A stretch of 57,100 nt of DNA, taken from Mongoliibacter sp. (GTDB lineage: Bacteria; Bacteroidota; Bacteroidia; Cytophagales; Cyclobacteriaceae). The notes under the pieces are model-generated. The model made no database searches, was not told the DNA's origin, and saw nothing but the letters and a program-made list of their open reading frames with translations. The stretch lies in contig NZ_REBN01000176.1 in assembly GCF_007692705.1 (NCBI RefSeq), forward strand, positions 1 through 57,100. Direction: 5' to 3'. Positions within the stretch are counted from its first letter, which is position 1. The number at the start of each line of letters is the position of its first letter. This document shows positions 30,058-34,677 of the stretch, in pieces. The position numbers were made by a program, and so were the translations under genes.

Positions 30058-30978
30058 CTAGTATCCTCTTTTTCTGTTAATTTGATTAATGAATGGTTGA
30101 CTTTTTTGTACTCGGTGGTAGTTTTCAATGATTTGCGGGGCTGCTGCCCCAGGGTTTGTCACACTCGCAATATGCGGGGTGATGGTGATTTCATTTCTGT
30201 TCCAAAAAGGGTGTTCTACCGGTAAAGGCTCTTTTTGGAAAACATCAAGCATAGCTCCTGAAATATATCCCTCGTCTAAGGCTGTCAATAGGTCCTCCTC
30301 TATCAAATGCTTTCCTCGGGCTACATTAATCAGGTATGTACCTTTCTGACATTTTCTGAAAAACTCAAGATTCAATATCCCTTCTGTTTCAGGTGTCAGC
30401 GGTAACATACAGACCAATATATTAATTTTAGATAAAAATTTATGTATTTGGTCACCAAAATAATATTCATAATCAAGGTTCTCTTTTGGTGAATTACCAA
30501 TACCAATTACTTCAAACCTCAAATTGAGCAGTTTATCAGCAATATCACCACCCAACTCCCCTACTCCTAAAACACCCACGGTAACAGGAATTTCAGGATT
30601 TGACATGTCCCATATCCTCCTAAGCTGATCTGCCTGATACCGTTTGATCTGACGGTGATGGTTAAGAACTGCCATTACCACGTAATTGGTCATAGAAATG
30701 GTCAATTTGTCGTCAATGATACGTGTAATGGGAATGTCACTAGGTATGCTTTCATCCGTAAGAATGTGATCAACTCCAGCCCCCATGGAACATATCAATT
30801 TTAGATTAGGGAAATCACTCAATATGCCACTTGGATGGTTCCAAAGAGTTACTACCTCCACCTTCTCCGGAGAAGAAATATCAGGATATACCTGTATATC
30901 TATAGAGGGATCAAGTTTTTTAAAATTTTCCACCCAGACAGAGGCATCTCTCCCAGGTGATATGATTGCTAAGCTCAT
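30058..30978 (-). CDS. D-2-hydroxyacid dehydrogenase, GhrA-like
   Basis: 306 residues. NAD(P)-binding GVLGVGELGGDI (about 134-145), catalytic Arg in NVARGKHL, Glu in DVFQKEPLP and His in TPHIASVTNP form the expected Arg-Glu-His set of the family. The short catalytic domain resembles glyoxylate/hydroxypyruvate reductase A (GhrA), so reduction of glyoxylate or hydroxypyruvate is likely. First gene of a pair with the universal stress protein. The exact substrate cannot be fixed from sequence. Confidence 0.9.
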   Translation of the reverse strand: MSLAIISPGRDASVWVENFKKLDPSIDIQVYPDISSPEKVEVVTLWNHPSGILSDFPNLKLICSMGAGVDHILTDESIPSDIPITRIIDDKLTISMTNYVVMAVLNHHRQIKRYQADQLRRIWDMSNPEIPVTVGVLGVGELGGDIADKLLNLRFEVIGIGNSPKENLDYEYYFGDQIHKFLSKINILVCMLPLTPETEGILNLEFFRKCQKGTYLINVARGKHLIEEDLLTALDEGYISGAMLDVFQKEPLPVEHPFWNRNEITITPHIASVTNPGAAAPQIIENYHRVQKSQPFINQINRKRGY

Positions 30979-31173: not shown

Positions 31174-32025
31174 ATGAAAACAAAAATCAATTTCCTATTC
31201 ATGTTTTTGCTCGCCTGCTGTATTTCAAGAGCCGAAGCACAACAAATCCAAATGCCTCAGGCTAGTCCCTCAGCTCAGATCAGCCAAAAAGTCGGCTTAA
31301 CTGATGTAACTGTGGATTACAGCAGACCAAGTATGCGAGGACGAAAAATCTTCGGTGAACTTGTACCTTTTGGAGAAGTGTGGAGAACAGGAGCCAATGC
31401 TGCAACAACCATAACTTTTTCCACTGATGTGATAATAGAAGGAAATGATTTGAAAGCGGGTACTTATGCCCTTTATGCAATTCCGAATAAAAATGAGTGG
31501 ACCATTATCATTTCATCAAACACCAAACTCTGGGGAGCTGTTGGATATACATCTGAAGATGATGTGATGAGATTCAAAGTAAAACCCGGTAAGACTGGCC
31601 AAAGGTATGAAACAATGGAAATCAACTTTGTTGATATAACTGATACCGGTTCATCACTGGCAATCAAATGGGAAAATACTAGAGTAAAATTCAGAATTGA
31701 AACTGAAGTGGATGGTATTGTAATGTCTCAGATAAAGGAATTGGTTTTGGATCAGGAACCCAAAAATCCAGGACTCTACTATCAGGCCGCTAACTATTAC
31801 TTCACAAACAACAAAGACATGGATCAGGCTTATGAATGGATCAATAAATCTGTTGAGGATGATGCAAAATACTGGACAATGCATCTTAAAGCTAAAATCG
31901 AGTTGGAATTAGGTAAGAAAAAAGAGGCTATTTCTTCTGCTCAAAAATCTATGGAAATGGCAAGAGAAGCTAAAAATCCCGATTATGTAGGACTAAACGA
32001 AAGATTGATCAAATCTATCAGGTAA
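31174..32025 (+). CDS. DUF2911 exported protein with TPR-like tail
   Basis: 283 residues with a signal peptide ending near AEAQ. Residues about 30-170 are DUF2911 (VTVDYSRPSMRGRKIFGELVPFGEVWRTGANAAT is the family hallmark region), predicted beta-rich. The C-terminal 95 residues are helical, with TPR-like repeats (NPGLYYQAANYYFTNNKDMDQAYEWI). Family function is unknown. Its stop TAA overlaps the next ATG by one base (TAATG), so it is translationally coupled to a CAT-fold protein. Confidence 0.9.
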   Translation: MKTKINFLFMFLLACCISRAEAQQIQMPQASPSAQISQKVGLTDVTVDYSRPSMRGRKIFGELVPFGEVWRTGANAATTITFSTDVIIEGNDLKAGTYALYAIPNKNEWTIIISSNTKLWGAVGYTSEDDVMRFKVKPGKTGQRYETMEINFVDITDTGSSLAIKWENTRVKFRIETEVDGIVMSQIKELVLDQEPKNPGLYYQAANYYFTNNKDMDQAYEWINKSVEDDAKYWTMHLKAKIELELGKKKEAISSAQKSMEMAREAKNPDYVGLNERLIKSIR

Positions 32026-32651
32026 TGGGTTACAAATATTTGAATATAGAAAAGTGGTCAAGAAAAGACCACTTTCTTTTTTTCTCCAAGTTTGAAGAGC
32101 CATTTTTCGGAATATGTTCTCGGGTAGATTGCACCAAGGCAATACAAACCTGTAAAAATAATGGGTATTCGTTTTTTCAATTTTACTTACACGCCTGTCT
32201 ACAAGCAGTAAATTCTATAATAGACTTCAGGTATAGAATTCAAGAAGGAAAAGTCTTGGTGTATGATGAAATTGGTGCTTCAAGTACAGTGAATAGACCC
32301 AATGGAACATTTGGTTTTTCCTATATCCCTTTTGAACGGGATTTTATCCAATTCTCATCTCAAACCACAACTATACTGGAAGAAGTGAGAAATTCAAAAG
32401 AGCTGCTTCCTTCCGGTTCTGCAGATAATGTCATTCATTTTTCGGTATTGCCTTGGCTGGATTTCACTTCAGTCTCCCATGCAAGACCTTTTTCTGCTGA
32501 AGATTCCTGTCCTAAGATCACTATAGGCAAAGTAATAGAGCACAATGGAAAATCAAGCTTTGCAGTTTCAATTCATGCACATCATGCTTTAATGGATGGT
32601 TACCATATAGGACTTTTTGTAGAAGCTTTTCAAAATCAATTGGACTCCTGA
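32025..32651 (+). CDS. Chloramphenicol-acetyltransferase-fold protein
   Basis: 208 residues, close to the 213-220 of type A CAT. The catalytic motif is HAHHALMDGYH (HHxxxDG, as in CAT). The N-terminus (WSRKDHFLFFSKFEEPFFGICSRVDCT) and VNSIIDFRYRI, HFSVLPWLDFTS also align with CAT by eye. It should use acetyl-CoA. Whether it acts on chloramphenicol cannot be told: it is chromosomal, coupled to a DUF2911 gene and without mobile-element flanks, so a house-keeping acyl transfer is as likely as resistance. Confidence 0.88.
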   Translation: MGYKYLNIEKWSRKDHFLFFSKFEEPFFGICSRVDCTKAIQTCKNNGYSFFQFYLHACLQAVNSIIDFRYRIQEGKVLVYDEIGASSTVNRPNGTFGFSYIPFERDFIQFSSQTTTILEEVRNSKELLPSGSADNVIHFSVLPWLDFTSVSHARPFSAEDSCPKITIGKVIEHNGKSSFAVSIHAHHALMDGYHIGLFVEAFQNQLDS

Positions 32652-32784: not shown

Positions 32785-34677
32785 ATGCCCAATATTAAGA
32801 AATTCATCATTGATTTTGACAGCACATTTACCCAAGTTGAAGCCCTGGATGTATTAGGGGAAATTAGTTTGGATAAAGACCCCAAAAAAGCTGAAAAGCT
32901 TCAAGCCATCAAAGACATTACCGACATGGGTATGGAAGGTAGCCTTAACTTTCGGGAGAGCTTGGAAAAAAGACTGGAAATACTCGAAGCTACAGAAACT
33001 CAAATCTCCACTTTAGTGGAAGCATTGAAAACCAAAGTATCCAAGTCCTTTCAGCGCAATAAGGAATTTTTTGAGGAAAACGCTGAAGATATTATTATCA
33101 TTTCAAATGGATTCAAGGATTTTATCACACCGATAGTCGGGGAGTATGGCATCAAAGCTGAGAATGTCTACGCAAATGAGTTTATTTATGATGAATCAGG
33201 AAAGATTATTGATTTCAATAGGGAAAACATCCTTTCTAAAAACGGAGGTAAGCCTGAAACTATTAAAAATCTTAACTTAGAAGGAGATATTTATGTAATT
33301 GGAGATGGCTACACAGATTATGAAATTAAAGCGTCCGGATTGGCTAATAAGTTCTATGCATTTACCGAAAATGTAGATAGGCCAAAAGTCACTTCCAAAG
33401 CAGACCATGTCGCTCCTAGTTTAGATGAAATCCTTTATGTGAATAAAATGAACAAAAAATTCTCCTATCCAAAAAGCCGTATCAATGTATTGCTTCTGGA
33501 AAACGTTCACCCAATCGGTGTTGAACTAATGAAGCAGGAAGGTTATAATGTTGAAATAATTGCATCTGCCCTTTCCGAAGAAGAGCTGGCCGAAAAGATA
33601 AAAAAAGTATCCATACTCGGTATCCGCTCCAAAACCAATGTCACCAAAAAAGTATTGGAAAATGCCAATAGACTTATTTCTATCGGTGCATTCTGCATAG
33701 GGACCAATCAGATTGATTTGGAAACCTGTACCGAAAAAGGAATTGCGGTCTTCAATGCCCCCTTCAGCAATACCCGTTCTGTAGTAGAAATGGCCATCGC
33801 AGAAATCATTTTCCTGATGAGAAATTTCCATGACAAAAGTTTGGGCATGCATAAGGGAATTTGGGATAAATCTGCAAGCGGTAGTTTCGAAATCAGAGGA
33901 AAGAAACTAGGGATTGTAGGCTACGGAAATATCGGTGCCCAACTCTCTGTATTGGCTGAAAGCATGGGTTTAGATGTGTATTATTACGACGTTATCGAAA
34001 AACTGGCACTTGGAAACGCGACCAAGGTTGAATCTTTGGAAGAACTTATCAGTACAGTAGATGTACTTACGCTACATGTGGACGGAAGGAAAGAGAACAA
34101 AAACCTTTTGGATGAGAGTAAAATCAAATTGATGAAAAAAGGCAGTTACCTACTGAATTTAAGTAGAGGACATGTAGTGGATATAAAGGCCTTGAAAGAT
34201 GCGCTTGAAAGCGGCCATATCGCTGGTGCAGCGGTGGATGTTTTCCCTGAAGAACCAAAGAATAACGATGAACCTTTTGTTTCCGAACTCATCGGATGCA
34301 AAAATGTAGTCCTAACCCCACATATTGGAGGATCTACTTCAGAAGCACAGGTGAATATAGCCAGGTTTGTACCCGGTAAGATCATGGAATACATCAATAC
34401 AGGAAATACATATAATTCTGTCAATTTCCCCAATATACAGTTACCATTCCTTCAGAATGCGCACAGATTGATACATATACATCAAAACGAACCTGGAATC
34501 CTTGCCAAGATCAACCGTATTTTGGCAGATTTTGAAATCAATATTGTTGGACAATACCTGAAGACCAATGAAAAAATAGGGTATGTGATTTCTGATATTG
34601 ACAAAGCCTATTCACCTGAGGTTATAGATGCCATGAAACAGATTCCGGGAACGATTAGATTTAGGGTATTATATTAA
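32785..34677 (+). CDS. serA: Phosphoserine phosphatase-like / phosphoglycerate dehydrogenase fusion
   Basis: 630 residues, about 220 longer than E. coli SerA. Residues 1-215 form a HAD phosphatase of the SerB type: IDFDST (D10, D12), ISNG near 106, GDGYTD near 173. After about residue 228 comes a D-3-phosphoglycerate dehydrogenase: GYGNIG near 377, Arg in LSRGHVVD (near 459), Glu in VFPEEP (near 487), His in PHIGGSTSEAQ (near 512), then an ACT domain (about 560-630) that usually gives serine feedback. It would catalyse the first and last steps of serine synthesis from 3-phosphoglycerate; the middle transaminase (SerC) is not in the window. The gene is alone on its strand. Confidence 0.9.
   Translation: MPNIKKFIIDFDSTFTQVEALDVLGEISLDKDPKKAEKLQAIKDITDMGMEGSLNFRESLEKRLEILEATETQISTLVEALKTKVSKSFQRNKEFFEENAEDIIIISNGFKDFITPIVGEYGIKAENVYANEFIYDESGKIIDFNRENILSKNGGKPETIKNLNLEGDIYVIGDGYTDYEIKASGLANKFYAFTENVDRPKVTSKADHVAPSLDEILYVNKMNKKFSYPKSRINVLLLENVHPIGVELMKQEGYNVEIIASALSEEELAEKIKKVSILGIRSKTNVTKKVLENANRLISIGAFCIGTNQIDLETCTEKGIAVFNAPFSNTRSVVEMAIAEIIFLMRNFHDKSLGMHKGIWDKSASGSFEIRGKKLGIVGYGNIGAQLSVLAESMGLDVYYYDVIEKLALGNATKVESLEELISTVDVLTLHVDGRKENKNLLDESKIKLMKKGSYLLNLSRGHVVDIKALKDALESGHIAGAAVDVFPEEPKNNDEPFVSELIGCKNVVLTPHIGGSTSEAQVNIARFVPGKIMEYINTGNTYNSVNFPNIQLPFLQNAHRLIHIHQNEPGILAKINRILADFEINIVGQYLKTNEKIGYVISDIDKAYSPEVIDAMKQIPGTIRFRVLY

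Follow-up and report, generated by a model that had tools for sequence, protein, structure and literature searches.

The window analysed here is the whole 57,100-nucleotide stretch (positions 1 to 57,100, forward strand) of contig NZ_REBN01000176.1 from Mongoliibacter sp. (assembly GCF_007692705.1). On its plus strand, an uninterrupted open reading frame (ORF) at 32785-34677, from ATG to stop codon, codes for a protein of 630 residues in which a SerB-like phosphatase of the HAD type is fused to a Type II phosphoglycerate dehydrogenase (PGDH) ending in an ACT domain. Pfam models delimit the domains as PF12710 (residues 8-179; 29.2 bits, cut-off 27), PF00389 (235-547), PF02826 (339-515) and the ACT model PF22629 (562-625). 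The N-terminal part also scores above the cut-off of TIGR01488 (48.7 versus 45 bits), which places it in the HAD-IB subfamily. Residues 223-630 match the NCBIfam model PRK11790 over profile positions 2-410 of 410 with 652.9 bits, well beyond the cut-off of 404, and belong to that family. The features are as follows.

32785..34677, plus strand: whole ORF, SerB-like phosphatase fused to Type II PGDH (ORF call, PRK11790).
32785..33450, plus strand: HAD-IB phosphoserine-phosphatase-like domain, residues 1-222 (PF12710 and TIGR01488 above cut-off; structural model of residues 1-219).
32812..32820, plus strand: motif I, DFD, with D10 as predicted nucleophile and D12 as predicted acid/base (aligned to E. 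coli SerB D116 and D118).
32839..32841, plus strand: E19, the Glu predicted to hold the phosphoserine amino group (aligned to E. coli SerB E125; role as described in PMC6321591).
32971..32973, plus strand: R63, the Arg predicted to bind the phosphoserine carboxylate (aligned to E. coli SerB R161; role as described in PMC6321591).
33103..33111, plus strand: motif II, S107-N108-G109 (SNG), with N108 a variable position (homologue alignment).
33250..33252, plus strand: motif III, K156 (aligned to E. coli SerB K249).
33304..33318, plus strand: motif IV, D174 and D178 (aligned to E. coli SerB D272 and D276).
33472..33792, plus strand: PGDH substrate-binding domain, N-terminal part, residues 230-336, with R281 equivalent to E. 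coli R60 (Pfam and alignment; exact limits chosen by us).
33796..34332, plus strand: PGDH NAD-binding domain, residues 338-516, with GxGxxG at 379-384, R461, E490 and H513 (Pfam and alignment; missing from families f23 and f63, see below).
34333..34455, plus strand: PGDH substrate-binding domain, C-terminal part, residues 517-557 (Pfam and reading of homologues).
34456..34674, plus strand: ACT domain, residues 558-630, with putative serine contacts H566, N568 and N586, equivalent to E. coli H344, N346 and N364 (Pfam and alignment; roles as described in PMC6300728).

The fusion was confirmed to be real, and neither a chance arrangement nor a misassembly, because 80 of 80 named loci kept (the best 80 of 137 relatives) and 182 of 241 genomes of its order match it about end to end. 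The named relatives are 77-95% identical, their matches spanning residue 1 or 5 to 630. We sampled 241 genomes of the order, 295 of the class and 128 of the phylum. The whole protein was matched in 217 of the order genomes at E<=1e-5, of which 182 reached E < 1e-200; among the matches listed, the latter run from residue 1-8 to 630, except one that ends at 587 (G157). The HAD part was present in 202 of the 241. The fusion of non-consecutive pathway steps, which the initial annotation had called unusual, is so when set against textbook pathways, but not within this order, where it is common. In the phylum sample, an end-to-end match was found in 7 of 128 genomes and a form without the NAD-binding domain in 4 of 128, all in the same class.

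Some genomes of the order depart from this picture. Fourteen genomes of family f8 (1.0-1.6 Mb; e.g., G007, G026, G042) have both HAD and dehydrogenase matches, with whole-protein E values of about 1e-152 to 1e-164; their two parts may not lie in one chain, in a split or altered state. Family f21 (0.7-1.9 Mb; e.g., G022, G038, G053) accounts for 17 of the 20 genomes without a match, among the matches listed, and has neither half at E<=1e-5; these organisms are perhaps serine auxotrophs. In three other genomes (G111, G120, G123) the HAD matches lie in short frames.

To characterize the phosphatase, we aligned E. coli SerB with 156 distinct homologues, taken from 175 loci (whole-genome and named). 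The active-site set of phosphoserine phosphatases (DxDxT, Ser, Lys, Asp and the Glu/Arg pair) is present in the Mongoliibacter protein. Both Asp residues of motif I, the Ser of motif II, the Lys of motif III and both Asp residues of motif IV are kept in 154 to 156 of the 156 homologues, the remainder being gaps. The Glu and Arg, which in phosphoserine phosphatase bind the amino and carboxyl groups of the substrate (PMC6321591, as far as the available text goes), are found in 153 (one Asp, two gaps) and 154 (two gaps), respectively. The D, D, E, R, S, K, D, D set is thus kept in at least 153 of 156 homologues; its sole departure other than a gap is a Glu-to-Asp change in locus L217, and the gaps correspond to incomplete copies. 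Next to the Glu/Arg pair, F56 is less strict (F in 144, L in 8, V in 1, Y in 1, two gaps).

The initial annotation had reported nearly all catalytic motifs of both enzymes, and these are as it described, including the Asn of SNG in motif II. It had also seen in that Asn a reason to doubt the specificity of the phosphatase. This doubt no longer stands, since the position of N108 varies (N in 100 homologues, G in 18, C in 14, A in 11, S in 9, Y in 1, L in 1, two gaps) while the catalytic positions are near invariant; the alignment points to an Asn that occupies a freely varying site.

Structural comparisons also pointed to the phosphoserine phosphatase family. A full-length AlphaFold model (pLDDT 75, pTM 0.42) was too weak to place the packing of the HAD domain, and searches with it by Foldseek and VIA gave dehydrogenase chains among the matches listed, those of VIA over residues ~229-552. 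The HAD domain was therefore folded alone (residues 1-219; pLDDT 88). Its closest fold is that of human phosphoserine phosphatase (PSPH; Z 18.0, root mean square deviation 3.3 over 202 residues), with lower scores for ThrH (Z 15.2), MtnX (15.0) and the phosphatase-glycerol-3-phosphate dehydrogenase (PSP-GPDH) of the alga Dunaliella (14.1). A sequence search of solved structures with the HAD part retrieved a phosphoserine-phosphatase-like protein of Francisella (102 bits) and human PSPH (58 bits).

The Dunaliella enzyme (6iuy), whose HAD domain is also matched by sequence (39.1 bits), raises the question of whether the substrate of the phosphatase is not phosphoserine but 3-phosphoglycerate or 3-phosphohydroxypyruvate, the compounds that the attached dehydrogenase consumes and produces, much as the algal enzymes make glycerol directly (PMC7468427, in the portion available). 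We consider this improbable. The Glu assigned to amino-group binding recurs in 153 of 156 homologues, in an alignment made with E. coli SerB rather than 6iuy, and neither metabolite has an amino group for it to bind, given the role described in the accessible part of PMC6321591. In addition, phosphatase and ACT domain persist where the dehydrogenase is dead (see below), and the genome has no other full-span match to the SerB model. The retained Glu and the persistence of the phosphatase without a dehydrogenase thus make an algal-type substrate less favoured.

No second full-span SerB-type HAD was found in this genome with TIGR00338, a search whose scope left out the metal-independent phosphoserine phosphatases of other superfamilies; the five other matches, at 13.7-26.6 bits and in open frames of 254-905 residues, each cover only part of the domain. 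Nor were plasmid-borne relatives of the HAD part found at E<=1e-10. A role for the domain as another metabolic phosphatase, for instance for histidinol phosphate, is conceivable because annotated phosphoserine phosphatases of four bacteria have been proposed to be histidinol-phosphate phosphatases (PMC5764234, seen in part). However, the N-terminal phosphatase domain of hisB scores above cut-off in the genome and supplies the histidine step, and both the fusion partner and the downstream gene in eight relatives' loci look like serine enzymes, so that we rate such a role as very unlikely. These eight loci, among the 175, carry a SerC-like gene downstream on the same strand, at gaps of ~8 to 960 bp (within ~190 bp in six of the eight). 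All eight come from the order and none is among the 80 named loci; flanks were scanned over ~1.5 kb at many loci and over as much as 6 kb at the named ones. In three further genomes (G019, G078, G064), a SerC-like match lies ~1.2 to 2.8 kb downstream of the fusion.

The dehydrogenase portion resembles E. coli SerA closely, as a PDB search gave SerA 1yba with 448.9 bits over residues 225-630. R461, E490, H513 and glycines G379, G381 and G384 align to R240, E269, H292 and the GYGHIG sequence of the E. coli enzyme. We take Arg240, Glu269, His292 and GxGxxG to be the catalytic residues and nucleotide motif of PGDH. A residue census of 133 full-length homologues and 16 degenerate copies, numbered by E. 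coli SerA, found their equivalents in 132 of the 133 full-length copies, the exception being L189. The putative serine contacts of the ACT domain are conserved throughout, in all 133 full-length copies and all 16 degenerate ones. In E. coli PGDH, serine is held by His344, Asn346 and Asn364 (PMC6300728), and changing residues 344 and 346 of PGDH to Ala relieves feedback (PMC9612172), both according to the sections of these papers at hand.

The same pathway step may be served in this class by a short SerA, which at E<=1e-50 was found in 217 of 295 class genomes versus 3 of 241 order genomes. The latter are one genome without a HAD match (G002) and two in which both are present (G113 and G138); the Mongoliibacter genome has no short SerA, like 238 of the 241. 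Because the short SerA is present in just three genomes of the order, the fused protein is probably the main PGDH of the pathway there, and the fusion probably acts as both SerA and SerB of the cell. That another 2-hydroxyacid dehydrogenase serves as the PGDH instead would find some support in two further matches to this family (contig C41, 2816-3760, and window 30151-30615). We give this alternative very little weight, since no catalytic or serine-binding residue of Type II PGDH has been lost from the fused protein and since every genome of the class sample with a dead dehydrogenase also has the short SerA (17 of 17), as would be expected if the fused PGDH were required in its absence. As a separate observation, four genomes of family f24 (G247, G273, G351 and G362; loci L048, L049, L056 and L052) carry a stand-alone Type II SerA, 50-53% identical, and have no SerB-model match at E<=1e-8.

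The fate of the dehydrogenase in the class is the more interesting fact, beyond the fusion itself, because related lineages have lost it while retaining both phosphatase and ACT site. The HAD part was found in 60 of the 295 class genomes, in which we read the ORF. In 37, the protein is full-length with all checked dehydrogenase residues (11 genomes of the order and 26 others). In 17, the dehydrogenase is dead, i.e., point-mutated, degenerate or missing its NAD-binding domain. Four genomes, all of family f61, have the split state, in which the two parts are encoded by adjacent genes of the same strand (L207, L208, L210 and L209); HAD and Type II SerA are 5-64 bp apart in three of these, and the SerA frame of L209 is without its first part. 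In the remaining two (G524 and G610), the locus is cut by contig ends.

The dead copies form a graded series. One f71 genome (L189) has a well-conserved core with Arg60 and Arg240 both changed to Gly. Three f60 genomes have a degenerate core, with Arg240 to Tyr and His292 to Arg or Asn, and in one f87 genome (L225) the core of the NAD-binding domain is just 17% identical. In nine f23 and three f63 genomes, the NAD-binding domain is missing altogether and the remnant of the substrate-binding domain runs into the ACT domain, giving proteins of 424-446 residues where complete; the copies of G415 and G447 are fragmentary. One of these, L213 (G415, f63), consists of frames of 103 and 291 residues in a single-contig genome, by decay or sequencing error. 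The three serine contacts are kept in the 16 degenerate copies and in L189, which is counted among the 133 full-length ones, and the phosphatase residues are kept in every dead copy that covers them (L212 and L213 are without the N-terminal part).

We built an unrooted tree of 57 rows from the HAD and C-terminal columns, excluding L211, L212, L213, L215 and L216. The intact, split and dead states need five changes on it, one to the split and four to the dead state, and a minimum of three changes of the full-length label follows from the starred branches. The dehydrogenase thus died about four times independently on the best tree. A single inactivation may account for the sister families f23 and f60 (91/88), and the tree program flagged as unsure the placement of the long branches L214 (f63) and L225 (f87). 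The split copies L207-L210 nest among fused ones (supports 97/84 and 90/73), which on this unrooted tree makes fission likelier than a state preceding the fusion.

Presence of the short SerA follows the same division. It was found in 17 of 17 genomes with a dead dehydrogenase, 22 of 37 with an intact one, 0 of 4 with split genes and 2 of 2 with cut loci; in G325, G415 and five f61 genomes the match counted is weaker than elsewhere (E ~1e-60 to 1e-77) and may represent another gene. For dead versus intact, Fisher's test gives p = 0.002, a value that is no clean probability as the genomes are related. In three f23 genomes (L230, L231, L232), a short SerA of 315-317 residues without an ACT domain directly follows serC. 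These data fit a loss of the fused PGDH only where a backup exists.

The dehydrogenase parts were also compared by their divergence. dN/dS was set aside as a measure, as synonymous sites are saturated in most pairs, and divergence was therefore expressed only as a ratio to that of the HAD part, as the median over pairs whose HAD difference is 0.1-0.5 (three pairs for f60; rows L189, L217, L212, L213 and L214 excluded). The ratio of dehydrogenase to HAD divergence is 1.7-2.4 in the dead families f23 and f60. For full-length copies it is 0.53-0.84, and for those accompanied by a short SerA 0.88-1.14.

Altogether, domains, residues and distribution support as the best reading the proposal of the initial annotation, one polypeptide with the first and last steps of serine synthesis and an ACT domain. 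We regard it as likely that the fusion is a bifunctional serine-pathway enzyme combining PGDH and phosphoserine phosphatase with a serine-sensing ACT domain, with shared control of both being probable. The C-terminal Type II PGDH would convert 3-phosphoglycerate and NAD+ to 3-phosphohydroxypyruvate, a separate SerC-like aminotransferase would yield phosphoserine, and the N-terminal HAD domain, as a Mg-dependent phosphoserine phosphatase with D10 as the nucleophile, would release L-serine. L-serine would bind between paired ACT domains through H566, N568 and N586 and inhibit the dehydrogenase first and probably the phosphatase too, so that entry and exit of the pathway would share one sensor. 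We thus infer both activities, assembly through the ACT and NAD domains, inhibition by serine and control of the phosphatase.

Conservation in the dead copies suggests that the ACT unit regulates the phosphatase too, since these copies keep both the phosphatase residues and the serine contacts, and all 17 occur with a short SerA. In chains without an NAD-binding domain, the phosphatase is the sole recognised catalytic domain left, and the kept ligand contacts therefore argue for its control. Such control of a phosphoserine phosphatase has a precedent in mycobacterial SerB2. We tentatively propose, at slightly less than even likelihood, that one ACT pair gates the first and last steps, and that in some descendants the dead PGDH has become an allosteric adapter making the phosphatase sensitive to serine after an ACT-less SerA took over step one. 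The adapter in these lineages would consist of the PGDH substrate-binding and ACT domains, the NAD-binding domain being missing in two family groups.

Alternatively, both activities could be real and the ACT domain could regulate the dehydrogenase alone, the fusion keeping the two enzymes equal in amount and the leftovers serving to fold or dimerise the phosphatase. We view this as a serious but rather doubtful possibility. Type II PGDH of E. coli is inhibited through its ACT domain, and extra PGDH domains are not always functional (PMC6300728, in the text available). However, the three serine contacts, and not the ACT fold alone, are kept in the 16 degenerate copies and L189, whereas the serine-blind ACT domains of mammalian PGDH have these contact residues altered, according to the same partial source.

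Several observations weigh against shared control or, more broadly, against a bifunctional serine enzyme. The ratio of ACT to HAD divergence is 1.2 in dead copies versus 0.80 in full-length ones and 1.01 in full-length ones with a short SerA; the ACT domain is thus also somewhat freer in dead lineages, with its serine contacts unchanged, and its faster divergence is in line with regulation of PGDH only. Retention of the ACT domain in dead copies could reflect a need for folding or dimerisation, not regulation. In place of the Gly336-Gly337 hinge of E. coli SerA the Mongoliibacter protein has Asn-Ala, the second Gly being absent in 133 of 133 copies, and given this change the coupling of serine binding to catalysis may differ from that in E. 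coli. The HAD part falls far short of the SerB equivalog TIGR00338 (53.5 bits, or 57.2 bits in the genome search, versus a cut-off of 144.15); we therefore describe it as predicted to work like SerB and do not file it in that model. Locus L217 (G438, f51) is full-length with an intact dehydrogenase, and its HAD part is 39% identical with Glu19 to Asp, Phe56 to Val and Gly109 to Ser, so that here the phosphatase rather than the dehydrogenase may have changed, the reverse of the dead-dehydrogenase copies. Outside the order, a short SerA is also present in 22 of 26 genomes with an intact fusion, where the fused dehydrogenase may be redundant. The algal enzyme, by analogy, warns that family likeness is no proof of a phosphoserine substrate (PMC7468427, consulted in part).

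The intervening step also gives reason for caution. No serC was found beside the fusion gene in the window, and the SerC-like aminotransferase of this genome (L227, 2728-3783, contig C157) scores below SerC cut-offs. The latter directly follows a 141-residue ORF that we read as aroQ, and aminotransferases of its type occur in 30 of 295 class genomes (E<=1e-30); it perhaps represents a separate SerC subfamily, comparable to the diverged SerC of Echinicola vietnamensis. That species is among 35 bacteria making all 20 amino acids, and of its serine steps GapMind marks only SerC as diverged (Echvi_1811, essential), with no gap at SerA or SerB (PMC7311316, in the passages available). The fusion is present in three other Echinicola species (L123, L140, L158), and the prototrophy and diverged SerC of E. 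vietnamensis fit a prototroph with the fusion.

A bifunctional enzyme of this kind would have several implications. The series from intact to point-mutated, degenerate and NAD-domain-less proteins would amount to a natural experiment in an enzyme becoming a regulatory part, and it predicts that serine inhibits the phosphatase even where no dehydrogenase is left. The fusion would also locate the SerB step for organisms in which the phosphatase falls well short of the SerB equivalog cut-off, a case with which pathway tools may already cope, to judge from the E. vietnamensis result in the same excerpted source (PMC7311316).

Two neighbours in the window complete the description of the locus. Directly upstream on the same strand, 32025-32651 (plus) codes for 208 residues with the fold of the chloramphenicol acetyltransferase family (PF00302, 97.5 bits). 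At 30058-30978 (minus), 1.8 kb upstream, lies a second D-2-hydroxyacid dehydrogenase of 306 residues, with the NAD-binding Pfam model above cut-off and the catalytic-domain model not reported.

Searches by title and abstract opening, a scope that leaves out supplements and subscription papers, found no description of a SerB-SerA fusion, nor is one mentioned in the available portions of PMC7311316, PMC5764234, PMC9026213 and PMC6303947. As far as these searches showed, the predicted bifunctional fusion is undescribed so far, though common in a whole order. A precedent among pathway fusions is the oomycete SerA-SerC protein, likewise of the serine pathway, which joins steps 1 and 2 and leaves the phosphatase separate (PMC2705460, in part). 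The algal PSP-GPDH shares the arrangement of a phosphoserine-phosphatase-like HAD domain N-terminal to an NAD dehydrogenase. Its dehydrogenase acts on glycerol-3-phosphate, its two steps are consecutive and its product is glycerol (PMC7468427, from the text accessible), whereas the dehydrogenase of the fusion is of the D-2-hydroxyacid type (PF00389/PF02826).

Comparison with the single enzymes shows what is shared and what is new. Residues 223-630 have the domains of E. coli SerA, with its catalytic and serine-binding ACT residues, at 51% identity in the structure search; the fusion differs from it by the N-terminal phosphatase and by lacking the Gly-Gly hinge before the ACT domain. Its HAD part has the HAD-IB fold, motifs I-IV and the Glu/Arg pair of E. 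coli SerB, human PSPH and the phosphoserine phosphatase of Methanocaldococcus jannaschii, from which it differs by falling below the TIGR00338 cut-off and by being joined to PGDH. Mycobacterial SerB2 (ACT-ACT-phosphatase) likewise couples a serine-responsive ACT unit to a phosphoserine phosphatase, with serine affecting its oligomers and activity (PMC10564941, as seen in part). In contrast to its two N-terminal ACT domains, the fusion has a single C-terminal one (562-625), within PGDH or its remnant. The fusion thus combines known kinds, a Type II PGDH and a candidate phosphoserine phosphatase, and the dead-dehydrogenase series is the part of real interest.

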